Assembly: GCA_022813675.1 (NCBI GenBank) | Contig: CP063375.1 | Span: 1,438,001 to 1,502,000 of the forward strand | DNA from: Deferribacteraceae bacterium V6Fe1 | GTDB lineage: Bacteria; Chrysiogenota; Deferribacteres; Deferribacterales; Deferrivibrionaceae | Reading direction: 5' to 3' | Length of the DNA: 64,000 nucleotides | Shown: positions 12,247-57,801 of the stretch, piece by piece | Layout of the letters: every line of letters starts with the position of its first letter | Numbering within the stretch: position 1 is the stretch's first letter | Made by a program: the position numbers and the translations under genes | The notes under the pieces: generated by a model | The model's database searches: none | What the model saw: the letters and a program-made list of their open reading frames with translations, nothing else | Told to the model about the DNA's origin: nothing

Positions 12247-12310
12247 CCAGAAAACTATCCGAAAAATTTGTGGAAAAATTTACGATAAGTATATTATGCT
12301 TTATTTCGCC
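12247..12310 (+). promoter_or_regulatory. Promoter-like block similar to the array-1 upstream promoter
   Basis: This intergenic stretch (CCAGAAAACTATCC, then GAAAAATTTG, then TTACGATAAGTATATTAT) closely parallels the block at 18470-18530 upstream of CRISPR array 1, including the GATAAGTAT segment and a following TTTCGC. A TATTAT -10 element on the plus strand would fire towards the 3' end of the TPR gene at 12351, so any product would be a short or antisense RNA. The role is inferred only. Confidence 0.25.
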
Positions 12311-12350
12311 AAGAAGATATTGCAACAGAGTATTTATCCCCACGATTTTT

Positions 12351-13637
12351 TCAATAGCAACTTGCTATTTTTATTTTTACTGCATTTTTTACCGGTTTAT
12401 TTTTCTTCGCATCAAAGGAGTCTTCTAAATAAAATACTACCTTTGTCCCTTCGTGAAATTTTTCTTTTTTGTCAGTTAGTTCTGAGATTTTAAAATAGTA
12501 AGTTTTATTGTCTTCCCCCATTATAAAGCCGGCTTTTTTATTTGGGAGATAACTGCTAATGACACCTGTATATTGTTGTTTATTGCTAAAGTAAGCTTCT
12601 TCCCAAACGTTTTTCAGCTCATTTAAAATATCAAGCTTATTTAAGTGAAAGTTTCCATATTTTTTTGAGAGATTTGAAGGCAACTTGGTCCCCCACTTGT
12701 TTTCATTAATGATGCTTTTTGCCAATACAAAATGTAGTTTTGCTTCATGTTCCATTTGTTTTGCTTCAAAGATTTCAGCGAGTAAAATCAAAAGATGAAT
12801 TTTTTTGTCAATTTCGCCAAAGTTTAAAATTCCTTGCAATGCAAAAGATAGGGCTTTTTCATAATTCTTGAGAATATAATAAATCACTGCAATTTCGTGT
12901 TGAATAAACCAATCCTTTTTTATTTTAACGATATATTGCAGGTTATTCAGAGCTGCATCATACTTTTTGAGCTCTTTGTATGACAGCGCAATACGCCACT
13001 TAAACCAAATATCATTATTATAGTGGAAATTGTTTATTGAATTTAAAGCTAAATTACATGCTTCAATACATTTTTCATACTGTTTAAGTTCATAAAGAGC
13101 TTTTGTTTTATGCATGAAATACTGCTCATATTCTGATGCCATTTCTATTTTTTTACCATTTTGCTCAAAGGAATATGGAGTCTTGCTCAGGTTGTTAATA
13201 TCCAACTTGTCAATAAAGTTTAAAATTATATTGGCGGGATAATTGGGATTTTCTTTTAACTTATTTATGACTTTGAAAATTGACTTTGTGTAGATAAGGT
13301 CTTGTTTTGAGCTGTTATTTATAATTTTTTCTGTATTGGCAATAAGTTCTTGTATTGATAGAGAGTCGCCTTTTTGAGATAAATAATCAAATATGGACCA
13401 AACATAAACATTTTTTATGTAATCGAAGTTATTATTGTTTTTTAACACTTCTTCACAAATTTGAATTGATTCTTCAGATTTACCCAACTTTCTTAGACAA
13501 AGTGCATATCCCCATCCATCCCACTTTTTATTGTCATCTTCTTCCCAAAGCTTTTTAAAAAGGGGCAGGGCTTCCGCGAAATTTTGATTTTGCCTCAAAG
13601 TGGAAGCTATTTTTCTGATTTCTTCGAAATTATTCAT
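12351..13637 (-). CDS. TPR protein with C-terminal cold-shock-like domain
   Basis: A 428-residue protein made of tetratricopeptide-like helical pairs from residue 15 to about 335 (for example ALPLFKKLWEEDDNKKWDGWGY and YDAALNNLQYIVKIKKDWF). The last 75 residues look like a cold-shock/OB domain: TGVISSYLPNKKAGFIMGE, then YYFKISEL and GTKVVFYLED. This suggests an RNA- or nucleotide-binding tail on a protein-interaction scaffold. It starts at ATG 13637 and is followed upstream by a 72-base gap holding a TTGTCAGAAAA motif before sbcC ends. No partner is evident. Confidence 0.6.
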   Translation of the reverse strand: MNNFEEIRKIASTLRQNQNFAEALPLFKKLWEEDDNKKWDGWGYALCLRKLGKSEESIQICEEVLKNNNNFDYIKNVYVWSIFDYLSQKGDSLSIQELIANTEKIINNSSKQDLIYTKSIFKVINKLKENPNYPANIILNFIDKLDINNLSKTPYSFEQNGKKIEMASEYEQYFMHKTKALYELKQYEKCIEACNLALNSINNFHYNNDIWFKWRIALSYKELKKYDAALNNLQYIVKIKKDWFIQHEIAVIYYILKNYEKALSFALQGILNFGEIDKKIHLLILLAEIFEAKQMEHEAKLHFVLAKSIINENKWGTKLPSNLSKKYGNFHLNKLDILNELKNVWEEAYFSNKQQYTGVISSYLPNKKAGFIMGEDNKTYYFKISELTDKKEKFHEGTKVVFYLEDSFDAKKNKPVKNAVKIKIASCY

Positions 13638-18540: not shown

Positions 18541-18838
18541 GTAGCTTGAAAATTAAATATGGTTCTGAGTGATAAGTAAAACAATCTATGATATTTGTTT
18601 TATTTTGGCGACTTCATTTCAAGTTGATTTTGAAAATTTGCTATTTTTAACGCTTATTGTTAATTGTCAATAAGTTACGGAAAAAGTTAGATGGATAGAA
18701 CTTGAAATTTTTAATCGTTATTTATCAATAAGTTACAAAATGGGGTATCAAAATTTACAGAGTAGAAAAATCGATACCCCCCCTTCTTTAAAAATGCCCT
18801 TGCAAGTATCTGAAAATATGGTATTAAAAAGGGGTGCT
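18541..18838 (+). promoter_or_regulatory. CRISPR leader 1
   Basis: About 298 A+T-rich bases preceding the first repeat, alignable end to end with the 297 bases before array 2. Shared landmarks are GAGTGATAAGTAAAAC near the 5' end, two copies of TCAATAAGTTAC (18668-18679 and 18725-18736), an inverted repeat GGGGTATC (18742-18749) / GATACCCC (18773-18780), and the end CAAGTATCTGAAAATATGG. This marks the left side as leader-proximal, so transcription and acquisition run left to right. The interval 18255-18468 holds no gene that I can see. Confidence 0.8.
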
Positions 18839-20204
18839 ATTGGAATTTTTGACCTGACTCGAAGGGATTACGACGTGTATGACAAAGAAACTTCCGTCTA
18901 AAAATGGTATTATTGGAATTTTTGACCTGACTCGAAGGGATTACGACGAATCTGTTAACTGGCTGGGTGTAAAATACCCTGTACTCATTGGAATTTTTGA
19001 CCTGACTCGAAGGGATTACGACGTGGTCGATTAGCTCGTTATACCAAGTTCCATTATTATTGGAATTTTTGACCTGACTCGAAGGGATTACGACTATATA
19101 GGTGTGGCATAAATAAAATCCCCTTTAATTTTATTGGAATTTTTGACCTGACTCGAAGGGATTACGACTTTACTTCAGGTAAGTTAGACAAGTTAGTATC
19201 AATATACATTGGAATTTTTGACCTGACTCGAAGGGATTACGACCTAATATTCTGTTTTTACCGTTTAAAGGGACAATATCATTGGAATTTTTGACCTGAC
19301 TCGAAGGGATTACGACCATACGGTAACAAATCAAAGCAACAAGTGCACCAGCAATTGGAATTTTTGACCTGACTCGAAGGGATTACGACTTAACAAACAC
19401 ATACTCAATCAACAACGCAGAATTTTTATTGGAATTTTTGACCTGACTCGAAGGGATTACGACAATTTTCTACTAAAAGATACTTCTCATAAATTTACCA
19501 AATTGGAATTTTTGACCTGACTCGAAGGGATTACGACTTCATAATCATCTGCAAACCCCATTATATTTATTATTATATTGGAATTTTTGACCTGACTCGA
19601 AGGGATTACGACGTCAATAGCTTTTTTTATAAACAACGATATGACGCATAATTGGAATTTTTGACCTGACTCGAAGGGATTACGACATATCCTCAACTTC
19701 TTCAAGGCTAACAAATTCAACTTATTGGAATTTTTGACCTGACTCGAAGGGATTACGACTTATGTAACAAAAAATAACGTAAAACAACTTTTCCATTTAT
19801 TGGAATTTTTGACCTGACTCGAAGGGATTACGACTTTGTAAAGCATTTATTTATATCTTTACTAAAAAACTATTGGAATTTTTGACCTGACTCGAAGGGA
19901 TTACGACTTCATAATCATCTGCAAACCCCATTATATTTATTATTATATTGGAATTTTTGACCTGACTCGAAGGGATTACGACGTCAATAGCTTTTTTTAT
20001 AAACAACGATATGACGCATAATTGGAATTTTTGACCTGACTCGAAGGGATTACGACTATATAACTACTCCCTTATTGTTAGGGATAGAACTTTTTATTGG
20101 AATTTTTGACCTGACTCGAAGGGATTACGACCTGTCAACCAGTTACCGTCCGTCTTTTTGCCCGTAGCATTGGAATTTTTGACCTGACTCGAAGGGATTA
20201 CGAC
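18839..20204 (+). CRISPR. CRISPR array 1: 19 repeats, 18 spacers
   Basis: Nineteen 36-base repeats beginning ATTGGAATTTTTGACC and ending GAAGGGATTACGAC, separated by spacers of 36-39 bases. I saw no variation among the repeats. First repeat 18839-18874, last 20169-20204. The repeat 3' end ATTACGAC would give the usual eight-base 5' handle, agreeing with the leader at the left. Spacers at 19538-19576 and 19613-19650 recur exactly at 19908-19946 and 19983-20020. Only one interference module (Csm, type III-A) with a Cas6 is nearby, so it is the likely user. Spacer targets cannot be identified here. Confidence 0.99.
19872..20020 (+). repeat. Duplicated two-spacer block inside array 1
   Basis: The block repeat-spacer-repeat-spacer at 19502-19650 recurs at 19872-20020 with both spacers identical and in the same order, separated by three other spacers. 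Spacer 1 begins TTCATAATCATCTGC and spacer 2 begins GTCAATAGC. Independent acquisition of the same two spacers in order is implausible, so unequal recombination between repeats is the likely cause. Confidence 0.95.
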
Positions 20205-20213
20205 AATAAAGAT

Positions 20214-20290: not shown

Positions 20291-20611
20291 GTAGATTTGC
20301 TTATAATCGATGAAGTAGGATTTAAGAAGATACCTTTGAACTATGTAGATGAATTCTTTGAGATTATAAGACAAAGATATGAAACAAATTCAGTAATTGT
20401 AACAACAAATAGACCATTTGAGGAATGGGGAAATATATTTGGAGATGTGGTACTTGCTTCTGCAATAATTGACAGACTTATCTATCATTCCCATATTTTT
20501 AAAATAACAGGTAAAAGCTACAGAATAAAAAGTTTACAAAAAGTAAAAGAAACATAAACACCACTGGGGGATTTTAAGGGCCATAAGGTGGGGATTTTTA
20601 ATTGACTTTGA
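20291..20611 (+). pseudogene. istB: Truncated IS21-family istB and terminal sequence, copy 1
   Basis: The C-terminal 88 or so residues of an IstB-type helper ATPase remain: VDLLIIDEVGF (Walker B), then VIVTTNRPFEEWGNIFGD, through a stop at 20557. The N-terminal part with Walker A is gone. The following bases (CCACTGGGGGATTTTAAGGG and CATAAGGTGGGGATTTTTAATTGAC) look like the right end of an IS21-type element. A nearly identical copy follows array 2 at 41394-41716. It is inactive. Confidence 0.85.
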
Positions 20612-40010: not shown

Positions 40011-40307
40011 GCAGTTTGAAAATTGAATAAGTGTCGAGTGATAAGTAAAACATGTTGAGAAAATTGTTTTATTTTGGTTGCAAAATTTCAAGTTGATTTT
40101 GAGTTTTTGTTGTTTTTAGCAGTTATTGTTAAGTATCAGTAAGTTATGTAAAAAGTTAGATTAATTGAACATGAATTTTTTAGTTCTTATTTATCAATAG
40201 GTTATGAAATAGGGTATCAGAATTTACAAAGTAGAAAAATTGATACCCCCCCTTCTTTAAATTTTGCTTTGCAAGTATCTGAAAATATGGTACTAAAAAG
40301 GGGTACT
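40011..40307 (+). promoter_or_regulatory. CRISPR leader 2
   Basis: About 297 bases homologous to leader 1. Shared parts are GAGTGATAAGTAAAAC, a TCAGTAAGTTAT/TCAATAGGTTAT pair, the inverted repeat GGGTATC (40212-40218) / GATACCC (40242-40248), the run of seven C, and CAAGTATCTGAAAATATGG just before the first repeat. The tandem 12-base promoter block found ahead of leader 1 is absent; csx20 ends three bases upstream, so array 2 may depend on read-through from the cas operon or on a promoter within the leader. Confidence 0.8.
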
Positions 40308-41309
40308 ATTGGAATCATTGACCTGACTTGAAGGGATTACGACTTGACGGGTATTTAGCTTTCATAGCCTCTACACATCTTATTGGAATCATTGACCTGA
40401 CTTGAAGGGATTACGACGCTTTATACGGACAAAACCCGCAAAGTGCAGACTTTTCATTGGAATCATTGACCTGACTTGAAGGGATTACGACTCTCATTTA
40501 AAGATTCAACAGTTTGCTTATCAGATTATTGGAATCATTGACCTGACTTGAAGGGATTACGACCATATCCAGCGTCCATTCAAGTTTCTGAACTTGCTTC
40601 ATTGGAATCATTGACCTGACTTGAAGGGATTACGACAACCATACCTTCTTTTTCATTTGGAGTAATTGCTGTTATATTGGAATCATTGACCTGACTTGAA
40701 GGGATTACGACTTTAGTCCTTGAAAACTCATCTTCAACTTCAATAACATTATTGGAATCATTGACCTGACTTGAAGGGATTACGACCTTATCCCACGAAT
40801 TTTGGACTTCTTTTTTAGGTTGGATTGGAATCATTGACCTGACTTGAAGGGATTACGACTTTATCCAACTCCTCATCTAATTTATCCCTAAACTCCATTG
40901 GAATCATTGACCTGACTTGAAGGGATTACGACTTTTTTGCATACCAATACCCCAGGGCTTGACTGCAGTAGATTGGAATCATTGACCTGACTTGAAGGGA
41001 TTACGACTTTTATGTTTATCTTTTAGCGCTTCTATTAGCTCCGCATTGGAATCATTGACCTGACTTGAAGGGATTACGACAAGATGTCAGTAAAGAACTG
41101 CACATCAAGACAGTCATCATTGGAATCATTGACCTGACTCGAAGGGATTACGACTTAGCACTGTCAAGGCGGGTTGTAAAATAAACCCCGACGCCTTATT
41201 GGAATTTTTGACCTGACTCGAAGGGATTACGACCCTTTATTTCAGTTATAAAGGCTTTTAAAAATTTCTTCATATTGGAATTTTTGACCTGACTCGAAGG
41301 GATTACGAC
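40308..41309 (+). CRISPR. CRISPR array 2: 14 repeats, 13 spacers, with a graded repeat change
   Basis: Repeats of 36 bases from 40308 to 41309. The first eleven read ATTGGAATCATTGACC...CTTGAAGGG, differing from array 1 at positions 9-10 (CA for TT) and 22 (T for C). Repeat 12 (41119-41154) is intermediate: CA as in array 2 but CTCGAAGGG as in array 1. Repeats 13 and 14 are identical to the array-1 repeat. Spacers are 36-39 bases except the last two, 43 and 40. The order records stepwise repeat change from trailer to leader, or a recombination joint. Confidence 0.99.
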
Positions 41310-41315
41310 AATAAA

Positions 41316-41344
41316 GATAAAAAAAGAGGGCTTTTTGGCCCTCT
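41316..41344 (-). terminator. Hairpin with minus-strand U-tract at the end of array 2
   Basis: Stem AGAGGGC (41325-41331) / GCCCTCT (41338-41344) preceded by an A run, the same element that closes array 1 with one loop-side change. As there, the T run lies on the minus strand, so it best stops leftward transcription into the array. Confidence 0.6.
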
Positions 41345-41393: not shown

Positions 41394-41716
41394 GTAGATT
41401 TGCTTATAATTGATGAAGTGGGATTTAAGAAGATACCTTTGAACTATGTAGATGAATTCTTTGAGATTATAAGACAAAGATATGAAACAAATTCCGTAAT
41501 TGTAACAACAAATAGACCATTTGAGGAATTGGGAAATATATTTGGAGATGTGGTACTTGCTTCTGCAATAATTGACAGACTTATCCATCATTCCCATATC
41601 TTTAAAATAACAGGTAAAAGCTACAGAATAAAAAGTTTACAAAAAGTAAAAGAAACATAAACACCACTGGGGAATTTTAAGGGCCATAAGGTGGGGATTT
41701 TTAATTGACTTTGACA
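41394..41716 (+). pseudogene. istB: Truncated IS21-family istB and terminal sequence, copy 2
   Basis: Nearly identical to 20291-20611: the last 88 or so IstB residues from VDLLIIDEVGF to the stop at 41660, then the CACTGGGGAATTTTAAGGGC and GGTGGGGATTTTTAATTGAC end sequence. Two residues differ (Leu for Trp after PFEE, His for Tyr in RLIHHSH). The high identity of the two copies points to recent duplication or gene conversion. The stretch 41717-41959 holds further heptamer-like repeats and no gene that I can see. Confidence 0.85.
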
Positions 41717-43728: not shown

Positions 43729-44580
43729 ATGAATAAGTTTAGCAAAGATGAGCATGATTTTTATCTAAATAATGAAAAAAAAATAAAGTCAGAATCATAT
43801 GTTTATAATTTTAACAGCTATGATCTTATTCCAGAACTGTTGGATACTTCTGAAAATCATATAGATGGTAATAATATCAATAGTTTAGAAATATATGAAT
43901 TGCAGCATATTGAAGATTTTTATATTAAAAATGTTTTTTTGAATGAATCCTTGATTGATGATTATTACAGTATAAGTGAGCTTGATTTAGCACCTATAGA
44001 GGAATACGAAGATATTCAAGAGTATCATTTCTTTAGATATGAGGTTGATTTATATGCACCAGAGTATGATAAAATTGGTGTCGATGAGTTTATTGAAGCA
44101 ATATGTGATTTATTTGCTTTTGGATTAGATGAATATTATCAATTATACAATATATTTGAAGGGAAAGAATCTATCCATTATAAAACAAAAGAAGTTATTT
44201 TTAACTTTTTAAAAGAAAATTGCACTGTAAGTGAGATAGTACTTGCTTACCAAATTAGGCAATTATGGGTGAATAACACAAATTTTCACTATGAATGTAA
44301 TAAATATAAAAATGATTTTTGTTTTGAAAAAAGACCTAATATCTCATGGAGAGTTTCAATGAAAATGGTAAAATGTTTTAATTCATTACCTAGTATCGAT
44401 GAAATAGAGCTTATGTTAGATGAATTATACAGCATATGGATTGAATCATATTTTAAAATATATAGATTTTTTTATGATTTTTTATCGGCGTTTTTTGATA
44501 ATCAACTTTTTAAATTAACTGCATCACCTATGTCATTATGCGAGATTGATAAGTCATTTTGGGAGAACTATTGTGAATAA
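43729..44580 (+). CDS. Unknown protein coupled to a SNF2 helicase
   Basis: A 283-residue acidic, aromatic-rich protein with no motif that I recognise. Stretches include ELDLAPIEEYEDIQEYHFFRYEVDLY and LFAFGLDEYYQLYNIFEG. It ends 8 bases inside the SNF2 helicase gene, so the two are translationally coupled and probably work together. The upstream 227-base gap contains two imperfect TGGTATACTATGGTATAG-type units (near 43590) that could be an operator. Likely a specificity or partner protein of a defence helicase; inferred only. Confidence 0.6.
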   Translation: MNKFSKDEHDFYLNNEKKIKSESYVYNFNSYDLIPELLDTSENHIDGNNINSLEIYELQHIEDFYIKNVFLNESLIDDYYSISELDLAPIEEYEDIQEYHFFRYEVDLYAPEYDKIGVDEFIEAICDLFAFGLDEYYQLYNIFEGKESIHYKTKEVIFNFLKENCTVSEIVLAYQIRQLWVNNTNFHYECNKYKNDFCFEKRPNISWRVSMKMVKCFNSLPSIDEIELMLDELYSIWIESYFKIYRFFYDFLSAFFDNQLFKLTASPMSLCEIDKSFWENYCE

Positions 44581-47371
44581 CTTTGGTCTGGTTCCATGCA
44601 AAATGTGTTGTGTTAAACTTATTCATAAACCTGAAAATGGATTTGGTTTTGTGTTAAAAGTTGAAGTTGATAAAGAGGAGATTAGTTTTCAAGTTTTTTT
44701 TCCTAAGCTTAATCAGAAGGTATGGCTGAAGCCTACTGATTTATCTTGTGGATTTTCAATAGGGATGGTTGTTAAGAATATTCCAAGTGTTATAACAAGA
44801 AAATCTCTTGGCGTTGGAAAAGTTTTAAGGATAAGAAAAATTGAGGACATTGAGCAAGTTTTGGTTGATTTTTTTGATAGTGGTAAAAAAGTATGGCTAC
44901 CCTACCAAGTTTTAGCTTTTACTCGTGATATAGATGAAAAATTCTATAATCAAGTACTTGAGGATAAAGATAACACAAAGTATTTTGCTATAAGAAATTT
45001 AGCATATGCTTTAGAGTTATGGCACCAAAATACAGGGGGATTAAGTCACTTAGATATAGAACCTTTACCACATCAAATACATCTTGTTCATCATATATTG
45101 AATTCAGGAAACTATAATTGGTTGATTGCTGATGATGTTGGGCTAGGAAAGACTATTGAAGTTGGTTTACTCATATCAGCTTTAATGGCAAGAGAAATAG
45201 TACACAGGGTGTTAGTTGTAACACCAGCTTCTCTAACTAACCAATGGAGAGATGAGCTTAAGTATAGATTTAATATGAATCATTTTGAAATCTACGGTAG
45301 TGATTTTAATATTTTTGATCTAACTCATTGGGATAAGCATAATTTTGTAATAGCTTCAATTGATGTAATTAAGAATGACAAACATTTGTATAAAATTCAG
45401 AATTCTGGATATTGGGATTTAATTGTTTTTGATGAAGCACACAAATTAACGAGAGTTAGGTTTGGTGATCAATATAAAGCTACGGAAAGGTTTAGGCTTG
45501 CAGTACAATTAAGAAAACTAACTAACTTTATCCTTTTATTATCTGCAACTCCTCATCAAGGTAAGCATGACAAGTTTATTGCTTTATTAGAGTTGATTAG
45601 GCCTGATTTAAAAAAACAGTTATTAAAGTTAAATGATCATCCTGAAATAGTAAAAGATTTGATTTTTAGAAATAGTAAGTCAGAAGTGATTGATCTTAAT
45701 GGTAATTTTATTTTCAAAGGGAAGGAAACTTTTAGAATAACAGTTATGTTAAGTGAAAAAGAAAAAAAATTTGAAGAATATTTAAAAAGCTATTTAAAAA
45801 AAGGTTATAAAGCAAGCGAACTAAGTGGTAATACATATGGGCAAGCCATAGGATTTGTTATGACTACTTTTAGAAAGTTAGCTGCATCAAGTTATCCTGC
45901 AATTATAAGTGCCCTAGATAAAAGGTTAAAAAAGCTTATTGAAAATGGCTCAAACACTAATAATAAAATGTTTAAACTTTTTTTTAAAGATGAAACTGAT
46001 GAGCTATATAATTTAATTTCTATTGCAGAAGAATGCTTATATAATGATTCTAAACTCCATAACTTTATGACTATTTTGGAAAATATTACTAAAAACAATC
46101 CTGATGAAAAAATAGTTGTATTTACTGAATATAAAGCTACTCAGAACTATTTAAAAAGTAAAATCGAGGAAATCTTTGGCAAAGACACTGTTAGTTTGAT
46201 ACATGGCTCTATGAATATTAATGACAGGATAAAAGCTATTGATGACTTTGAAGAGAATAATAGATTTTTGATTTCTACTGAAGCTGGTGGTGAAGGTATA
46301 AATCTTCAAAGAAAGTGTCATATAATGATTAATTATGATTTACCGTGGAATCCTATGAGATTAGTTCAAAGAATTGGTCGATTATATCGTTATGGGCAAA
46401 AAAAAGTAGTTAAAGTATTTAATATAACAACTAGTGATACTATTGATGGATACTTAACTGATTTACTTTATTCAAGAATTGAGCAAATAGTGAAAGATAT
46501 GTCAATTGTAAATAACGACTATAAACCAGGGTTAGAGGCAGAAATAGTAGGTGAGCTTTGTGAACTAGTTGAAATTACAGATATATTGGAGTCATCTGAA
46601 TCATTAAATAGAGCCAAAACTGAAGAAGATATAGTATATACTTTACAAAAAGCTAGAGAAGCCTTAGAAAAACAAAGAGATATTTTAGTGCATGCAAGCT
46701 CTTTTTCTGCAAAAGATACCACAGAAGGTCTATCTTTAAATGTAAAGCATTTAGAAAAATTTTGTTTTGATATGTTTCAATTACTTGATATAGAGATAAC
46801 AAAAGTTACCCATAATAATAGTGTTTATGAGTTAAAACTGCCTGATGAGCTTAAAGAGGAGTTAGGCTTTCAATCTAAAAACATCAGAGTTAGCTTTATT
46901 AAGGACCCAAAATTTATAAGAAAAGGAATTTTGTTAATGGATATCAATAATCCTCTATTAAGAATTTTGCTAGAAAAAGCTAAAGCGCCTAAATTTGGAG
47001 GGCAATTGGCAATTATTCAAGAAGATATAGATGGAGCAAGATTTATTAAGAGTTCAATTTTGCGATGGCAAGATGAGCAGGGTAGGCGTATAAAGCAAGA
47101 ATATAATGTCTGGTTATTAAAAGATTTAAATAATGTAGAGCATAACTCTTCCACTTTTAGTGATTGGTTGTTAGAAAATGAATCACTAAATGAAGTTAAT
47201 AAGGTTAATTTTGAAAAGAAGCTAATCAAGAATGTAATAGATATTTTTAATAAAAAAATAGAAGAAAGGTTAGCTGCTTTATCATCTAAAAACCTTTTTC
47301 CTGAAAGTTTTGAAAATATTTCTGCTGGATATATTTTGAACTTAAGTAATAAAAATAGCATATTAAAGTAA
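44573..47371 (+). CDS. SNF2-family helicase
   Basis: A 932-residue SF2 ATPase of the SNF2/RapA-like kind. Motifs: Walker A DDVGLGKT (GLGKT at 190-194), VLVVTPASLTNQW (Ia), DEAH at 287-290, LLLSATPHQGKHDKF (III), and C-terminal VVFTEYKAT, LIHGSMN, STEAGGEGINLQ and QRIGRLYRYGQ (VI) near residues 520-608. The last 270 residues are a unique C-terminal region. Start chosen at GTG 44573 with GGGAG seven bases before, rather than TTG 44546. Similar helicases occur in DISARM-like and other phage-defence operons. Confidence 0.85.
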   Translation: MNNFGLVPCKMCCVKLIHKPENGFGFVLKVEVDKEEISFQVFFPKLNQKVWLKPTDLSCGFSIGMVVKNIPSVITRKSLGVGKVLRIRKIEDIEQVLVDFFDSGKKVWLPYQVLAFTRDIDEKFYNQVLEDKDNTKYFAIRNLAYALELWHQNTGGLSHLDIEPLPHQIHLVHHILNSGNYNWLIADDVGLGKTIEVGLLISALMAREIVHRVLVVTPASLTNQWRDELKYRFNMNHFEIYGSDFNIFDLTHWDKHNFVIASIDVIKNDKHLYKIQNSGYWDLIVFDEAHKLTRVRFGDQYKATERFRLAVQLRKLTNFILLLSATPHQGKHDKFIALLELIRPDLKKQLLKLNDHPEIVKDLIFRNSKSEVIDLNGNFIFKGKETFRITVMLSEKEKKFEEYLKSYLKKGYKASELSGNTYGQAIGFVMTTFRKLAASSYPAIISALDKRLKKLIENGSNTNNKMFKLFFKDETDELYNLISIAEECLYNDSKLHNFMTILENITKNNPDEKIVVFTEYKATQNYLKSKIEEIFGKDTVSLIHGSMNINDRIKAIDDFEENNRFLISTEAGGEGINLQRKCHIMINYDLPWNPMRLVQRIGRLYRYGQKKVVKVFNITTSDTIDGYLTDLLYSRIEQIVKDMSIVNNDYKPGLEAEIVGELCELVEITDILESSESLNRAKTEEDIVYTLQKAREALEKQRDILVHASSFSAKDTTEGLSLNVKHLEKFCFDMFQLLDIEITKVTHNNSVYELKLPDELKEELGFQSKNIRVSFIKDPKFIRKGILLMDINNPLLRILLEKAKAPKFGGQLAIIQEDIDGARFIKSSILRWQDEQGRRIKQEYNVWLLKDLNNVEHNSSTFSDWLLENESLNEVNKVNFEKKLIKNVIDIFNKKIEERLAALSSKNLFPESFENISAGYILNLSNKNSILK

Positions 47372-47449
47372 TTAAATAAATTATTAATATGTTTTAATCT
47401 TCTAAGTAATTATGGGATACTTAGCTTTTTTGACTTGAAGATGATAGTG

Positions 47450-50400
47450 TTATTTTTTCTTCCTAAAGTCGAAAAGAGGCTCTAGTTTTTTAGCAATATT
47501 TTTATTTACTAATGAATTGATGCTTTCTTTGTCTTTGAGAACAGTATTTTGCTTTTTTTTAGAAAAATCAAATTTATGACTCTGTGTGAAAATGTTACTT
47601 TGTTTGGCAGATTTATTGTGATTTTTGGGCGTATATATGTAGTTTTCTTGTTGGATATTTTCATTAAAGATGCGTTCTTCTTTAGTTTCATATTTTAAGG
47701 CTGGTTTAGTTTTATTATCAGCACTTTTTGATTCAGTAATAAAATCTTCCGCGTCTTCTTTTACCGTATTTGGTATGATATTGATAGGCTTTTCAGTTGA
47801 GTATGAATTTTCATTTTCCCATTCCAAACGAATTTCATGTGCTCTCCTTTTGATTTCTTCCAACAAATCATTGTGTGGAGTATCATTGCTTTCAAGTTCC
47901 GAAAAGTTAGGTTTTATCCCACTACGTTCTAATTCAAAATATAATTTTTCCATAGTTTCTTGAGGATTTCTGTAATATTCGCTTCCTCTAATTCTAAAAA
48001 ACCTCCAACCAAGCCTTTCTAAAATAGCTTGTCTTTTAAGATCATTAGGCAAGTTTTCTGGCCGGTGGTATTTTTCTCCATCGCATTCAACAGCTATCTT
48101 ATTCTTACCATCTTCAACAACCATATCAATTCTATAAGCACCTACTTTCCACTGTGGTGTAACTTTATATCCGCGATTTAAAAGTGTTTTCATTACATCT
48201 TTTTCAAATTCTGACTCAGCTTTTGACAATGAAGATTCATAGTTATTAAGTACAGGATTTCTCACATGATTTATTAACTTAAGCCTTATATCATCAGGTT
48301 TTAAGTCAATTTCTGGATTAAGTGAGTGAACAACCCAAAGTTGATCTTTAGCCCTACTTACAGCAACATTATATCTTTTTTTATACATATCGTTTCTACC
48401 ATCTTCACTTACCAAAGTTATAGGGGCACCATTTATATTAGGGCTATCAACTAAACTTAGGAAAATTACATCTCGTTCATCTCCTTGGAATTGAGGTGGA
48501 GTACCACATAGAATCTTCCTTTTTTCATATTCATTTGGCTCTATATATTTTTGAAGCAATTTATCAATTTCAATAGCTTGTTGATCTCCAACCATTGAAA
48601 TAACGCCAAAAGTTTTATCTGCGTAATTTGGGTTTTCAATACATGCACAGATTAAAGATACGATGTGATCAACTTCTTCAAAGTTAACTTTGTTTTGGCT
48701 TCTATGGCCATTTGGTACTCTATACTCAACAGTAGGTGGAGTAATACTCACCCCAGAATTTTCACGTAATGGTTTTATTTTGCCATTATATGACAGTTGG
48801 TTACAAAACTCTATAATTTCAGGTAGGCATCTAAAATGTTCCGTAAGCATTAATGGCTTAAAATTTAATGTTTTAGCCATATCATAAACAGATGTTTTAC
48901 CATTAAATAAGTGATTGTTGGGGATATCTCCAATAAACTGTTCAATTAAAGCATTAATTTCTTCTTCTTTGAGTCCTACATTTGAAGGGCTAACTTGTTC
49001 ATCATCACCAACAATGATTACTTGTTTCCCTAAATATAAAACTGACAAAGCCAGGATATCAGCTTGGCTTGCTTCGTCTATTATTATTACATCAAATTTA
49101 TTACTACGAGGATCAAATGTTTCTGAAACTTTATTTAAAGACATTATCCATACAGGAATAGCCGATTGACATTTTGTCATTAGATCTCGAGCTTTCAGCC
49201 TTAGTCTTGGGGCCGATTTACCCGTTCCTTTACCTATTTGTCTTACTGTTTGACGCCAACCTTCAATAGCCTGATTTTGTTCTGCTGATGTGTTAGTTAT
49301 TTTTAGATACCATGCCCTTTCATAGGCAAGTCTCTTTGCATTATTCATCAGAGATTCATTTAATTGTGTAATTTCCTTTTGTATTTCATTATAATTATAT
49401 TTATCCAATCTATTTAGTTGATTGGACAATTGCCTCCATTTCCAAGCTTCTAATATATTTTCTGGTAAATTACTATTACCATGTACCCCTTTTCTACAAT
49501 GAATATCATTTGCCCAGTCAGGTGCAACTTTATTGAGTTTTTCAAGTAGTGATTTCCTTTTTTCAAATATTTCATATTTTTTGTAAATACTTCTTACTAT
49601 TCTGTATAATTTTGCATAATCTTCATAATTGCAAGAGCGTGCTGCAATGTAAAGTTCATCAAATGGAAAACCTAAATGTTTATATTCTTTCAAAAGGCTT
49701 TTATAATCTGACCATACTTTGTGGATATCTATATGCTCTATTTTCTTGATATGCTTATCTATATCTTTTAGTAAAATATTTTCTAAAGTATGAATGATAG
49801 ATTCTACAGAATAATTTGTATTTAAAATTGTGTCAAAAAAATCTTGATTTTTAGATATAGACTTTATTTCTTTGAGTGTAGCCAAATATTCATCGTTATG
49901 CCAATTAAGTGCTTTTAGTATATTTCTTTTAATTTTTTCAATGTTTTCTTCAAATTTATCGAAATCATATTCAATGTTTTCTTCAACTTCATATAGGAGT
50001 TTCTTAAATTTCTCATAAACCTTTCTTTTGTTTACAGTGTATTTAATAACTTTATTAACTAAGCTATAGTCAGCTTTACTGCAAGGACGGTTATTATTGA
50101 TTTTTATGGAGTTTTTTATTTTTTTCCACTTAGGCTTTATTATTGTATCTAGTAGGCCAACAGGATTTTCCTTGTTTGTGCTAATTATATCATTAAGTAA
50201 AATTAACGTTTCTTTTGTCATTATTTCGTCAGGTACCTCTACTTCGTTTTCTAAACGTATTTTATAATAACTTTCATATTCTTGTTGAAAATAATTTAAC
50301 TCTTCTAAAAAATCATTCCACAGGCTTTTGTATGCGGTATTTTTTAATGATTTAGAAAAAATTTTATATTGTAGTTGTTCAAAATTATTTAAATCCTCAA

Positions 50401-52234
50401 GTAATTTCTTTGTTTTTTTGAGCAATTCCACAAGAATATCATAATTGACATTATCTGAAATAGCTATATTTGCTTCCCAACCTGTGAGCTCTTTATTTAA
50501 ATATTGAATTTTTTCTTTATTTGATAAAAAAATATCTTCAGTCCAAATTGATTCAAAATCAATATTTTGTTGTAACAGTTGTTCTTCTTCTAAATTAATT
50601 TCTTCGTTTGATTTATACAACTCTTCCAATTCTTCTAACGAAAGAGGTAGCCCAATAGTGTCATCAGTAGTTTCTCCATTAATATAATCAAATTTACCTT
50701 TCCCTTCATATATAAATTTTGCGGCTTCTATGAGTTTTATCGTCTGATTGTTATAAATAATATCTTTATATTCATTTGCTCTTATTTCGGTTAATTCATT
50801 TATTTTGTTTCTATATAACTTAATTAATTCTTGTCTCTCAGATTTTAGCCTTTCTATTTTTTTCTTTGACTCACTAGAATTAAATCTTGTGTTTTTCTCC
50901 GCAATATCTGCTATTGCTATATCCATTTCTTTTCTTTGAGAAGCAGAGCTTAGTAAGCTAATACACAAGCTTTGTAATTCCTTAAAAACTTTATTTTTGA
51001 GTACAGTTAATGCCTTTTCCGTGTGACTTGTAACTAAAATGTTCTTTCCTTCACTTAATAAATGACCAATAAGATTAGCTATCGTATGAGTTTTTCCTGT
51101 GCCTGGTGGTCCTTGAACTAATACTGCACCAGAGCTGTTAAGAAACTTTAATATTTTCAATTGCTCGCTGTTTGCTGGCAAAGTAAATAGTATATCTTCA
51201 TCAATTCCGTTTTGATTCCAATTTTCTTGTGTAATTTCTTCAGTTTTATTATTTTTATGTCTACCAATTAGATTACCAAAAAAATATGGTAATTCTGATT
51301 CATCAAGATTTTCCGACTCTTCAAGAATCCTGTCAATGAACATAGAAAATCCTAATGTTCTTTTTCTTAAAAATAATATAGGCTCATGTGTAATTTGCGG
51401 TCCTTTATGATTAGGATCAAAATTTTCACCATATTTACCATTTTTATCTATTACATTTATGAGTTTAGAAAATATAGCTTCAATATTTGCTTTATCAGCA
51501 ATATGATAAGTATTCTCATTAATTTCTTCTAATACTTCAGCCAGCATTTTTTGATTTATTGAGCTTATACTTCTTAACATAGGTGTGTATAATTCGACCT
51601 TAGGTTCTTCAATTTTTACAACAAAAGAAGGTTTGTTAGAATCAAATTCCAATATCACTTTTTGCAATATGGCATGATGATCTATTATTCTATCTTCTGT
51701 TTTCCATCTAATTCTTCCATCCCCTAAAATAAGCTCAACACTTTCTGACTCCTTTTTTATATCAGAATATAATTTGAATAAGTCAGTATAAAGATCTAGA
51801 GCATGTTTTTTAGGTAGTTCAACAGTTCTCCAGTTATTTCTTTTTATAATCCAGTTTTTGAAAAAATCGTATCTTTTGGGTTCATCATTAAAATTTTCTT
51901 CTACATATGTTACTTCATTATCTTCTTTAAGTATTTCTTTTACAATTTGTTCTTTATAGCTTACTTGTTCGACTGAAATATCTTGCCATTTACCATCTAT
52001 CCATTCGATGATTTCCTCATCTGGTTTGGGACATGGATTTATAATTGGCTTCATCACTTCTAAAATTTTTTCGTTTTCAAAATCAAGAGTTTCATAAACA
52101 AACCATACTTCTTTTGTTTTAGGAAGATTTGTTAGATTTATAAGTGCTTTTTGTTTTCCTATTTCACATATGATAGGATTAGAAAGCTCATTAAATTCTT
52201 TTAAAAATTTAAAAACATTATGTATTTGGCTCAT
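47450..52234 (-). CDS. SF1 helicase with C-terminal Vsr-like nuclease
   Basis: A 1594-residue protein of the UPF1/DNA2-like SF1 type. Walker A VLVQGPPGTGKTHTIANLIG lies near residue 378, then a long coiled-coil insertion (about 420-1000), Walker B FDVIIIDEASQADIL near 1050, GDDEQVSPSN, and VAVSRAKDQLWVV near 1297. At about 1360-1440 there is a Vsr/MTES_1575-type nuclease domain (GAYRIDMVVEDGKNKIAVECDG; RLGWRFFRIRGSEYY), then a basic low-complexity tail. This layout is typical of stand-alone or operonic phage-defence proteins. It converges with the SNF2 gene and follows the YdbC-like gene. Confidence 0.85.
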   Translation of the reverse strand: MSQIHNVFKFLKEFNELSNPIICEIGKQKALINLTNLPKTKEVWFVYETLDFENEKILEVMKPIINPCPKPDEEIIEWIDGKWQDISVEQVSYKEQIVKEILKEDNEVTYVEENFNDEPKRYDFFKNWIIKRNNWRTVELPKKHALDLYTDLFKLYSDIKKESESVELILGDGRIRWKTEDRIIDHHAILQKVILEFDSNKPSFVVKIEEPKVELYTPMLRSISSINQKMLAEVLEEINENTYHIADKANIEAIFSKLINVIDKNGKYGENFDPNHKGPQITHEPILFLRKRTLGFSMFIDRILEESENLDESELPYFFGNLIGRHKNNKTEEITQENWNQNGIDEDILFTLPANSEQLKILKFLNSSGAVLVQGPPGTGKTHTIANLIGHLLSEGKNILVTSHTEKALTVLKNKVFKELQSLCISLLSSASQRKEMDIAIADIAEKNTRFNSSESKKKIERLKSERQELIKLYRNKINELTEIRANEYKDIIYNNQTIKLIEAAKFIYEGKGKFDYINGETTDDTIGLPLSLEELEELYKSNEEINLEEEQLLQQNIDFESIWTEDIFLSNKEKIQYLNKELTGWEANIAISDNVNYDILVELLKKTKKLLEDLNNFEQLQYKIFSKSLKNTAYKSLWNDFLEELNYFQQEYESYYKIRLENEVEVPDEIMTKETLILLNDIISTNKENPVGLLDTIIKPKWKKIKNSIKINNNRPCSKADYSLVNKVIKYTVNKRKVYEKFKKLLYEVEENIEYDFDKFEENIEKIKRNILKALNWHNDEYLATLKEIKSISKNQDFFDTILNTNYSVESIIHTLENILLKDIDKHIKKIEHIDIHKVWSDYKSLLKEYKHLGFPFDELYIAARSCNYEDYAKLYRIVRSIYKKYEIFEKRKSLLEKLNKVAPDWANDIHCRKGVHGNSNLPENILEAWKWRQLSNQLNRLDKYNYNEIQKEITQLNESLMNNAKRLAYERAWYLKITNTSAEQNQAIEGWRQTVRQIGKGTGKSAPRLRLKARDLMTKCQSAIPVWIMSLNKVSETFDPRSNKFDVIIIDEASQADILALSVLYLGKQVIIVGDDEQVSPSNVGLKEEEINALIEQFIGDIPNNHLFNGKTSVYDMAKTLNFKPLMLTEHFRCLPEIIEFCNQLSYNGKIKPLRENSGVSITPPTVEYRVPNGHRSQNKVNFEEVDHIVSLICACIENPNYADKTFGVISMVGDQQAIEIDKLLQKYIEPNEYEKRKILCGTPPQFQGDERDVIFLSLVDSPNINGAPITLVSEDGRNDMYKKRYNVAVSRAKDQLWVVHSLNPEIDLKPDDIRLKLINHVRNPVLNNYESSLSKAESEFEKDVMKTLLNRGYKVTPQWKVGAYRIDMVVEDGKNKIAVECDGEKYHRPENLPNDLKRQAILERLGWRFFRIRGSEYYRNPQETMEKLYFELERSGIKPNFSELESNDTPHNDLLEEIKRRAHEIRLEWENENSYSTEKPINIIPNTVKEDAEDFITESKSADNKTKPALKYETKEERIFNENIQQENYIYTPKNHNKSAKQSNIFTQSHKFDFSKKKQNTVLKDKESINSLVNKNIAKKLEPLFDFRKKK

Positions 52235-52249
52235 TTTAGTTTTAAATTG

Positions 52250-52468
52250 TTATATTCCAAGAGCATTTAGTACTTCTTTTAGGTTTGCAATTTCTTCTTC
52301 GGTAAGAGTTACACCTTTGCCGATTTTACCATCTTTGTGATTCCAGTCTCTTAAATCAAACTTTGCAGGCCGACCATTCCAACTCACCTTATTCAGCTCT
52401 TTAGTCCAGTTACTTTTTTCAGAAAGAATAGCGATTCTTTCCACGATTTCATATTTTATTTCGCTCAT
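52250..52468 (-). CDS. YdbC/PC4-like ssDNA-binding protein
   Basis: A 72-residue protein matching the YdbC (PC4-like) family: IVERIAILSE at the start, WNGRPAKFDLRDWNHKDGKIGKGVTL, then TEEEIANLKEVLNAL. PC4-fold proteins bind single-stranded DNA. It starts 18 bases after the PLD fragment ends and lies 15 bases before the SF1 helicase, so it probably serves that unit. Confidence 0.8.
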   Translation of the reverse strand: MSEIKYEIVERIAILSEKSNWTKELNKVSWNGRPAKFDLRDWNHKDGKIGKGVTLTEEEIANLKEVLNALGI

Positions 52469-52486
52469 ATGTACCCCTATTATAGT

Positions 52487-52702
52487 TTATTTAGTTATTC
52501 TGCCATTTATGAAATCTACGCTAAGCCCGACAAGTATTTTTAAAGTAAAATTGTTGTTTCTTTTCAAAGATTCGTAAAGCTCTTGAACACCAGAGAAGTA
52601 AAAGAAGCCAACAAGAAATTTTAATTCATTACTTACGCTTATAAGAGTATTTAGCCTGCTCTTAAGAATTTTTTCCGGCTGATTAGTTATAAAGTTACTC
52701 AA
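52487..52702 (-). pseudogene. N-terminal fragment of a PLD-domain protein
   Basis: A 71-residue frame (TTG 52702 with GGGGAG upstream) resembling the beginning of PLD-family helicase or restriction proteins: LISVSNELKFLVGFFYFSGVQELYESL and FTLKILVGL. Such proteins normally run for several hundred residues; here the sequence ends after GRITK and YdbC follows at once. The rest was lost by deletion. The IS4-like element is inserted about 70 bases upstream of it. Confidence 0.6.
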
Positions 52703-52772: not shown

Positions 52773-54190
52773 CTGTAGTCTCCCCGTTTTTTTCATACTA
52801 TATGGCATAGTGAACTTTTTGGGAACAAGAAATCTTCTATTGTCAGTTGTTTTAGTTTATTTTTCTTTCGTCGCCTGTGAAGATATAATGTCTTAACTCC
52901 AGCAAAAATATTTCTTACACCCCTTAAAAGTGTATAATAAATAAACTGAGGTCGTTTCTTCTTTTCGGGTTTTGAGGCAAGAACTACTTCTTCTCGTAAT
53001 ATTTCATCTTCATTAATATCAACCAGTACAGACCAAGCAAGCATTACTGCACCAAGCATTGACCTTATTGAATTAAAATTTCTTATTATTGATTTCTCTA
53101 TGCCAAAGCCTTGCTTTTCAAATCTATAACTTTCTTCTACTCCCCAACGTCTATAATAGCCACGTATTCTCCTCTTAATTTCTTCTGATTTACTTAAATG
53201 TCCATTGGTTAAAAATATATGGGATTCTTTATTAAATTCTCCTTTATGTGATATTAGGGTGACAGGATATAATTTTGATTTAATTTCTATAAAGCATTTC
53301 AAATATCCATATCTAAAATGTTTTCCGTTTTTATATCTTCTATTTATAGATTTATTTAACTCTTCAATATTTACGCTTTTCCCTTTATAAATTAAATGAC
53401 GGTTGGTCTTCATTCTCACAATAAAACTTAAACATTCTTTTAGGAAATAGCCAAGATAAGCTCCATTATCATAGCCCCTATCCATTACCCATAAGCCTTT
53501 TTTACCAACATTAGTTACAAAACTTTCTACACTTTTTAAGCCTTCTGTATTAGCACTCTTAAAATCTTTACTCTCTGTGCTGTACATCCCAAGATAAGCA
53601 GGATAAGTTTGATTACTTTTGTCATCAAATAAACTTATCTGATTCAAATAATAACCCTCGAGATATTTACCTGTGCTACCATCTCTCACTTTACAGGACT
53701 GCTCAAAATTATTAGCAAATAAATGGCTTATATCTCCATCATCAAGGGCTATTATTGTACTATCATCTACTTTAGTAGATGCTTGTGATAATAAATAATC
53801 ATTAGCTAATTCAAGTAAATTAGTCTTACCCTCAAGATGATTAAACAAACGTTTCATAGTGTTTTAAGTTTTATTTTCTCATTCAGGCTTCTTGATATTT
53901 CAGTAATGTTACAATTTCCTGTTATTAATACCCCTGATACTAGTTCCAGAATGAATTTACCATATGGTAGACTTACCTTACCTTCAAAGTTATGGACCAT
54001 TACTCTAATTTTTCCCTTCACTTTTTTTAATAATTCAGTCATAATTAAACACCTCTTTTTGTTTGGTTGTTAGTTGTTTATGCAAATTCAACTATACCAG
54101 CGAAAAGAGGTACTTACAACTATTTTATTACAATTTCTTACATAAAACCAATCAGTTACATAATTCCATTAAAAAAACGGGGAGACTGCA
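52773..54190 (-). mobile_element. IS4-like insertion sequence, copy A
   Basis: Bounded by inverted repeats TGTAGTCTCCCCGTTTTTTT (left) and, on the other strand, TGCAGTCTCCCCGTTTTTTT (right). Flanked by a nine-base direct repeat ATAATAGAA (52764-52772 and 54191-54199), so it inserted by transposition. About 1.4 kb with a single, frame-disrupted transposase. Element B (56334-57801) is a relative with similar ends but clearly different sequence. Confidence 0.88.
52793..54042 (-). pseudogene. IS4-family transposase, frameshifted (element A)
   Basis: A 62-residue N-terminal frame (54042-53854) ends in RSLNEKIKLKTL, and a 354-residue frame (53857-52793) continues with KRLFNHLEGKTNLL. Element B has the corresponding join intact (LNEKSGVKHTLKRLQRN), which locates the shift at about 53855. 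The DDE-type segments remain: ALDDGDISH, LWVMDRGYDNGAYLGYF and YRRWGVEESYRFEKQ. No canonical slippery heptamer is present at the join, so I call it a mutation. Confidence 0.85.
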
Positions 54191-54307: not shown

Positions 54308-54405
54308 TGGCGGGAGTGTGAAGGAATCGAACCTCCCTCCCAACCAAAAAGGCGGGACAGTCGGCTTTGAAGGCCGCGGGGGACACCAGAGCCCCATCCA
54401 CTCCC
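54308..54405 (-). tRNA. selC: tRNA-Sec (selC), anticodon TCA
   Basis: A 98-base tRNA on the minus strand with encoded CCA. The acceptor arms GGGAGTG (54405-54399) and CACTCCC pair, with discriminator G. The anticodon loop CTTCAAA puts TCA at 54370-54368. The long variable arm and a T arm (GGTTCGATTCC) fit a bacterial selenocysteine tRNA. It implies that the organism makes selenoproteins. It marks the border between the defence island and housekeeping genes. The gap 54191-54307 holds nothing else that I can see. Confidence 0.95.
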
Positions 54406-56333: not shown

Positions 56334-57801
56334 ACTGCTATCACCCCATTTTTATATAAGAAGTTATATTTGACAGTTATTTACGATTGATAATGCCTCC
56401 AAAATGTTGTATGTTATTTTTACCAAAAAAAGCAACAATAACAACAAAATGGAGGCAGTTTATGATAGGTGAAATTGCTAAAAATGTGAAGGAAAAAATG
56501 CTTAACATCACAAGAAATCTTCATGATTATATTACAAAGCCCCAACAAAAGTATTTGCTTGAGATGTTATCCGGATGTTTTGCAACCAAGAGTTTGAACC
56601 TTACGCAAATATCAGGCTATCTCAATGAAAAAAGCGGAGTGAAACATACACTTAAGCGACTGCAAAGGAATACATTTTCTTATTCGAATTTGGGTTTTAT
56701 TTCTAATGTTTATAATATTGATTATGTATACGAAGAGACTAAGTCAGAAGATAAATTATTAATATCAATTGACGGTGGAGATTTGAGCCATTCATATGGT
56801 AAGAGCTTTGAGCTAATATCTAATGTGAGGGATGGTAGTAGTGGTCGTATTTCTCCAGGCTATCATTTAAATCATGCAGTATGCTATAGCCCATTATCAG
56901 GGAGGACATTTTCACTGTATCTTGATGTATACAGCAGCAATTCTAATGAGTTTACAAGTGAGAATTCGGAGACATTTAAGATGCTTGATATGTTGAGGGA
57001 TAAGTATATTTCTAAAGGCTTATTTTTGTTTGACCGTGGTTACGATCGTGGAATTATTTTAAGATATCTTCTTCGGCATGGATTAAATTTTATTGTAAGG
57101 AGTGTAGGTGTAAGACATGTAGATTATAAGGGTAAAGGTGTGTCGGTATCGGAACTTTGTGAGAATTATATTAACAGGCGTTACAAGAATGGCGGTATTT
57201 CTTACGGTTATGCCCAGTGTTTTATAAAGGTATGGCCGTTACCGTTGTCAGTGTTAAATGTAGTAGAGATAAGAATATGTTATATTTTCTTTGTAATGGT
57301 CATATGAGTAAGAGTAAGGAAGTATATTTTATTATTAAGTCATACTTTAAGAGGTGGCGTATTGAAGAGAGTTATAGATTTATGAAGCAACAGTTTGGAA
57401 TGGAGAAATGCCTTGTGAGGAGATTTGAGTCACTTAAGACGATATTGTCGATAGTTTCATTTTGTTGGAATGTATTAAGTCAGGTGGAGTCTGATACGAT
57501 TGCTGCAAAAATGTTGGATAGGATGTCTAAACGGGAAAAGGTCAATAGGAAAGGTAGGGTTGTGTGTAGGTTTATTTATTATCGTATTTCTGACGGGATA
57601 AGAAATTTACTGTTATTGCTGGAGAAAAAGCTATTTGATTTTAGGAAAAAAATTTATGAGTCTGATATGGTTAGCTTTTTTAAGATAAGTTTTTATTTGG
57701 AGTTAGGGGAAAAGAGACAGACTATTAATGGCTTAGGAAATATGAAAAGGAAGAAAAGTGTACTCGTGGCATAAGGGTGCAAAAAATGGGGTGACGGCAG
57801 T
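56334..57801 (+). mobile_element. IS4-like insertion sequence, copy B
   Basis: Inverted ends ACTGCTATCACCCCATTTTT (left) and ACTGCCGTCACCCCATTTTT (right, other strand), flanked by a six-base direct repeat ACATTA (56328-56333 and 57802-57807). About 1.47 kb. It lies between the EamA gene and the GspF-like gene, 44 bases before the latter's ATG. Related to element A by transposase and end sequence, but diverged. Confidence 0.85.
56462..57774 (+). pseudogene. IS4-family transposase, frameshifted (element B)
   Basis: Start ATG 56462 after GGAGG. The first frame runs through LISIDGGDLSHSYG and LFLFDRGYDRGIILRYL to about 57228 and then reads out of phase to a stop at 57307. The correct continuation (MAVTVVSVKCSRDK, then FKRWRIEESYRFMKQQFGMEK) is in the -1 frame from about 57217 to 57774. 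Element A is continuous at this position. One base change in length inactivated it. Confidence 0.85.

Follow-up and report, generated by a model that had tools for sequence, protein, structure and literature searches.

A conserved gene pair of a RapA-type Swi2/Snf2 ATPase and a helical partner protein, a probable two-gene defence module in Deferribacteraceae bacterium V6Fe1

Introduction

An SNF2 helicase is present in many multi-gene defence systems, including DISARM, BREX, Hma, Dpd, and Zorya. Its role in these systems is obscure because it acts within a large complex. A minimal, nuclease-free version with two genes, in which the helicase has one dedicated partner, would make that role directly testable. 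Described here is a gene pair of this form from a 64,000-nucleotide stretch of the Deferribacteraceae bacterium V6Fe1 genome (contig CP063375.1, positions 1,438,001 to 1,502,000, referred to here as the window). It is composed of a partner protein, P0001, and a RapA-type Swi2/Snf2 ATPase, P0002. The two genes travel together in 19 of 19 loci, often beside restriction or anti-virus genes, and the pair is therefore probably an undescribed two-gene defence module.

A RapA-like layout (Tudor, Swi2/Snf2 core, inactive REase, and alpha+beta) occurs in BrxHII and in DUF499-centred systems (PMC12839542). A description of the pair was not found in the literature, which is weak evidence of absence since preprints and subscription journals lay mostly outside the search. 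The partner represents a protein family of unmatched fold that is absent from the defence-finding library tested, and for this reason the pair is missed by PADLOC-style annotation.

Organization of the Gene Pair

The partner protein P0001 is 283 amino acids in length and is encoded by an open reading frame (ORF) at 43729..44580 on the plus strand. P0002 is 932 amino acids in length, contains SNF2 and Helicase_C domains, and is read from a GTG start at 44573..47371 on the same strand. The two ORFs overlap by exactly 8 bases (44573 to 44580). A Shine-Dalgarno-like GGGAG lies inside P0001 just 5' of the P0002 GTG (44560..44580, plus strand), which fits the expectation for translational coupling. 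In most related pairs the two genes likewise overlap by 1-10 bp or are separated by 0-22 bp. The ORFs, strands, and eight-base overlap given in a preliminary description of this DNA were all confirmed in the sequence. Neither a terminator nor an excess of promoters was found around the pair.

Conservation of the Pairing

The partner gene is located directly upstream of the SNF2 helicase gene, and on the same strand, in all 19 loci, which represent at least three named phyla. The loci came from helicase searches, from genome samples G059, G312, G297, G259, and G725, from G1149 and G988, and, for five of them, from the order of G1149. The helicase in G725 is split across two contig ends. Loci L058 to L060 are mutually close, as are L006 and L007, which leaves closer to 16 independent cases than 19.

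A profile built from 11 partners, with P0001 left out, matches P0001 at E=9.6e-14 (search space 10,000), while the best of 2000 shuffled P0001 sequences reached E=0.37; the homology of the partners is therefore not due to chance. The same profile has no match in the control loci (L028, L031, and others fetched with them), which contain distant BREX, Hma, and other SNF2 relatives. The helicase family was found in five of 369 genomes from one class and the partner family in exactly these five, with neither occurring alone. Two loci were found through the partner profile alone, and the helicase adjoins the partner in both. Because weak cases may slip past the initial filter of the search tool, absence elsewhere is not absolute. 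The distribution of the pair is patchy, at about 1% of sampled genomes, with plasmid carriage seen.

The P0001-P0002 pair is almost certainly one real, conserved functional unit, unlisted in the libraries tested. The preliminary description had proposed an undescribed two-gene system and had named a lack of conserved pairing in other genomes as the finding that would speak against it. That search was run with the opposite outcome, and the 19 of 19 pairing together with the reciprocal co-occurrence bears the proposal out.

The Swi2/Snf2 ATPase

P0002 has an intact Walker A (DDVGLGKT) and Walker B (DEAH), and the ATPase motifs are invariant among the pair helicases. Its closest solved structure is RapA. 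Full-length relatives with 41-46% identity were found on plasmids of Nitrosococcus halophilus and two Deinococcus, as well as in a Desulfobulbaceae metagenome-assembled genome, Vibrio splendidus, and Pseudoalteromonas. The next plasmid relatives are clearly separated from these, with only ~28-35% identity over a partial length. Identity of P0002 is 42-48% to pair members, compared to 26-29% for HmaA/BrxHII-type and other SNF2 relatives. A tree constructed on 803 core columns places the paired helicases apart from seven other SNF2 proteins on a long branch with support of 1.000. Judged from these sequences, the RapA-type Swi2/Snf2 ATPases that include P0002 form a distinct clade. Where dN/dS could be computed for the helicase, it is 0.06-0.17, indicating strong purifying selection.

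Across 13 pair helicases, residues 650-932 contain no nuclease motif and no acidic residue conserved at ≥90%. Given this lack of conserved acidic residues, nuclease activity in the C-terminal region is unlikely. Viral contigs contained no true member of the P0002 family and a single partial match at 29%, and no family member was found in phage records.

The Partner Protein

P0001 can be divided into two parts. The N-terminal ~110 residues are acidic and predicted to be disordered, while the C-terminal ~150 residues are a predicted all-helical domain, homologous to the C-terminal domain of the 18 other upstream partners. In AlphaFold2 models this domain is all-helical and confidently predicted both in P0001, where most of residues 120-182 have a pLDDT of about 90 or higher, and in the L023 partner, where the same applies to most of residues 1-155. 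P0001 has no match in Pfam, NCBIfam, or PADLOC, in agreement with the earlier view that it has no recognisable family. The helical domain has no match among PDB sequences and contains no nuclease-like motif. A DnaD-like resemblance (rank 8, E=7.4) was not significant and disappeared with a better model. On sequence grounds, the helical C-terminal domain of the partner is a new family.

Most partners are 400-750 residues in length and have an N-terminal tetratricopeptide repeat (TPR) region, detectable in several, that a long linker connects to the conserved helical domain. Of five longer partners scanned with Pfam, three showed the TPR. Among 14 partners, 12 have 26-42% Asp and Glu in the 80 residues preceding the helical domain, and the other two, both from Deinococcus and 1300 residues in length, are proline-rich there instead. 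P0001 has kept the acidic stretch (26% Asp and Glu) and the helical domain, and the TPR is absent. The nearly invariant residues (W180, W207, and a Phe near 248-251, P0001 numbering) look structural rather than catalytic. In every comparison, purifying selection was stronger on the domain, with pN/pS values of 0.34-0.57 before it versus 0.09-0.41 in the last 190 residues.

The partner family came to light only via helicase searches. Searches with P0001 only found nothing in viral contigs, plasmids, or phages, and in the order they found nothing other than one weak, stop-interrupted match (E=0.003).

Gene Neighbourhoods of the Pair

Nine of the 19 loci have DNA-methyltransferase-based restriction genes next to the pair. 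Most are type I (loci L009, L010, L022, L050, L061, and L062). The HsdM of L022 is cut by a contig end and was assigned from its resemblance to the HsdM of L050. At L058 and L059, an N6_N4 methylase is found directly after the helicase on the same strand and is followed by a ResIII helicase, which was read only in L059.

L024 contains a complete Hma operon by the pair (HmaB 1415 bits, HmaC 1170 bits), and the partner gene starts 81 bp past HmaC. The possibility that the pair replaces HmaA at this locus is ruled out by a separate HmaA-type helicase further upstream. The pair is thus an addition to Hma at L024, not its helicase. At both L024 and L063 (G297), a gene of ~1400 residues is located between the HmaA-type helicase and HmaB, and the pair comes directly after HmaC.

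Dsr1 is found near L005, and WYL regulators are close to the pair in L022 and L050. At L009 (9934-14888, Vibrio splendidus), the pair stands between a type I restriction operon and tniQ-cas8/5-cas7-cas6-like genes. The tniQ and cas genes, assigned by eye, resemble an I-F3 CRISPR-associated transposon.

Directly upstream of the pair, four loci of one proteobacterial order (L058, 7716-8375; L059, 6341-7012; L060, 1572-2396; and L061, 6268-6924) carry a gene of ~220 residues whose product has a HEPN-like R-N-x3-H motif. The motif reads R-N-Q-[IL]-I-H, and the Pfam HEPN score is below the cut-off. L050 contains a fragment of the same family after the pair (12295-12774), apparently interrupted. The HEPN-like gene is a possible third gene of the pair's system.

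Facing Genes

The pair and P0003 are convergent neighbours with 78 bp between them. P0003 (47450..52234, minus strand) is 1594 amino acids in length and combines an SF1 helicase with a nuclease domain of the MTES_1575/DUF559 (Vsr-like) type at its C-terminus (Pfam, E=1.2e-32). It is PDC-S37-like, scoring 243 bits over residues 321-1465 against this PADLOC candidate. P0004 (52250..52468, minus strand) is a 72-residue single-stranded-DNA-binding protein of the PC4/YdbC family (Pfam PC4, E=1.7e-9). The giant helicase-nuclease and YdbC-like protein of the preliminary description are thereby recovered. P0005 (52487..52702, minus strand, 71 amino acids) had been taken for a PLD fragment within the same operon. 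It aligns instead, with 60% identity over 97% of the fragment, to helicase-related proteins on Thermus/Allomeiothermus plasmids. Only the first ~70 residues of the larger protein are left, so P0005 is a truncated N-terminal remnant and not a working operon gene.

Relatives of P0003 in four genomes or groups are not accompanied by the pair. PC4 is directly upstream of the relative in Fusobacteria ZRK30 (47%), directly downstream in Acetoanaerobium, and absent in Fusobacterium; in Acinetobacter, the relative comes after BREX-1 brxL. A second conserved pair, a PC4/YdbC gene with a ~1600-residue SF1 helicase carrying the MTES_1575 nuclease, is seen in the window (47450-52468) and in the loci of Fusobacteria ZRK30 and Acetoanaerobium just named, L042 (5759-10692) and L043 (5926-11279). 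PC4 with P0003 occurs without the P0001-P0002 pair, and the pair occurs without P0003. The two are therefore separate, and PC4 with P0003 is a conserved unit of its own.

Surroundings in the Window

Around the pair, the window contains an AAA-ATPase-like ORF, P0003, PC4, and a transposase. Upstream is a type III-A CRISPR locus with Cas6, Cas10, Csm genes, and Cas1, and the pair is 2.4 kb from a type III-A CRISPR array. Two arrays of 19 and 14 repeats (18820-20207 and 40300-41316) with slightly different repeats lie on either side of the csm locus. Both arrays have an IstB-like fragment after them (20297-20557 and 41400-41660), and the two array-plus-fragment stretches are 76% identical. The transposase, IS4-like by eye, is split into two frames (52793-54073) and is located between the P0005 remnant and a selenocysteine tRNA (54308-54405). 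A second, similar split transposase is found at 56387-57774.

Discussion

The gene neighbourhoods make it likely that the pair is a defence module. It is somewhat less assured, though still favoured, that this is a two-gene module in which the ATPase serves as the motor and has in the partner its own dedicated adaptor or sensor. A conserved docking domain behind a fast-evolving front is what would be expected of a sensor or adaptor. A fuller version is put forward tentatively. It is that of an autonomous immune pair, in which a nuclease-free RapA-type motor and a partner with a new helical domain and a variable sensor would act by ATP-driven remodelling and not by cutting, with a HEPN ribonuclease as a third gene in one lineage.

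Several observations weigh against the two-gene defence module. Association with restriction systems is typical of any defence-island gene and is no proof of cooperation. No evident defence gene is within reach of the pair in L008, L023, L025, and L049. The AlphaFold2 models of the partner domain have no significant fold match in PDB or among viral models. The window partner may itself be degenerate, since it lacks the TPR and is the most divergent of the partners.

The flanking genes could also be read as a sign that the pair is not autonomous and assists restriction-type systems encoded next to it, with the motor clearing proteins or raising processivity for HsdR, Hma, or methyltransferase (MTase)-Res. 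Methyltransferase-based restriction genes directly flank the pair in nine of the 19 loci, the partner follows HmaC by 81 bp in L024, and an MTase gene comes directly after the helicase on its own strand in L058 and L059. However, the 10 other loci, including the window and the Deinococcus plasmids, have no adjacent restriction system. The neighbouring type varies (type I, MTase-ResIII, and Hma), so there is no fixed partner, and the Hma operon of L024 already has its own HmaA-type helicase. An accessory role is considered unlikely. That the pair and the facing PC4-helicase-nuclease genes form one multi-gene system is largely refuted by their independent distribution and can scarcely be maintained. 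The convergent arrangement with 78 bp between neighbours might suggest such a system, but the genes are on opposite strands, P0003 homologues occur without the pair (in Fusobacteria ZRK30, in Acetoanaerobium, and in Acinetobacter downstream of BREX-1), and P0003 is directly beside the pair in no other pair locus read. The closest approach to this arrangement is in L060, where a DUF4011 (Hhe-type) SF1 helicase lies downstream of the pair, three genes away.

Two further explanations were weighed. With RapA as the closest solved structure, and with an acidic linker and TPR that are compatible with RNA-polymerase or protein tethering, the ATPase could be a RapA-like transcription remodeller with a dedicated regulator, recycling or displacing RNA polymerase in a regulatory and not an immune role. 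This is quite improbable given the patchy presence in ~1% of genomes, the plasmid carriage, the defence-island contexts, and a score on the RapA model of only 186 bits against a cut-off of 576. The overlap of a small upstream gene with a large downstream gene and the acidic segment (26-42% Asp and Glu) would also fit a toxin-antitoxin-like pair, in which the free ATPase is toxic and the acidic partner is a DNA-mimic antitoxin that keeps it off DNA. The Deinococcus partners, however, have no acidic segment, the helical domain and not the acidic segment is most conserved, and partners of 400-1300 amino acids are atypical of antitoxins. A toxin-antitoxin-like pair is accordingly very improbable.

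For the defence module, a remodelling mechanism by a nuclease-free RapA-type motor with an adaptor or sensor can be sketched from anatomy and neighbourhood. It is speculative, though better supported than the other readings. The helical domain of the partner would dock on the ATPase. The fast-evolving N-terminus (TPR, acidic linker, or, in Deinococcus, a long coiled or proline-rich region) may be a sensor, tether, or auto-inhibitor. Infection would free the motor, which would then move along the invading double-stranded DNA and strip or stall replication and transcription complexes. Having no nuclease of its own, it could either act as a direct block to the invader or make the DNA accessible to nucleases encoded nearby. 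Candidate helpers would be type I restriction enzymes, Hma, and the HEPN RNase, and, in the window, possibly the type III CRISPR system.

Comparison with Known Systems

The facing helicase P0003 shares with Hhe and ProA an SF1 helicase and a Vsr/MTES_1575-type nuclease, but scores only 169 of 2000 bits for Hhe and 238 of 1500 bits for ProA. It differs from Hhe, ProA, and PDC-S37 in its PC4/YdbC neighbour.

The ATPase of the pair was compared with the helicases of four described groups. HmaA is, like P0002, a defence-linked helicase of RapA-type Swi2/Snf2 form. The pair helicases reach about 290-320 bits on the HmaA model (P0002, 316), and about 290-330 over the PADLOC models compared, whereas a true HmaA (L036) reaches 1437. 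The whole genome contains no DUF499 gene, and the Hma core was found in one of the 19 pair loci (L024), with a separate HmaA-type helicase. The partner is not a described Hma gene, and an HmaA-type helicase coexists with the pair in L024 and L063.

BrxHII and BrxHI of BREX share the SNF2 core and a similar length with P0002, which scores 321 and 276 bits on their respective models, compared to 1939 for a true BrxHII (L031) and 649 for L028. No BREX gene (PglZ, BrxC, or other core gene) is found beside the pair in the window. DrmD, the SNF2-like helicase of DISARM, is the top-scoring NCBIfam model for P0002 (NF038317), at 315.8 bits versus a cut-off of 610; NF038318 gives 164.5 versus 950. No DrmA, DrmB, or methylase adjoins the pair in the window, and the earlier conclusion that this is not DISARM holds. 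P0002 differs from RapA in its score (185.7 bits versus an equivalog cut-off of 576), in its dedicated partner gene, and in its mobile, patchy distribution. With scores far below those of true members or the cut-offs, P0002 is placed outside the HmaA, BrxHII/BrxHI, DrmD, and RapA families.

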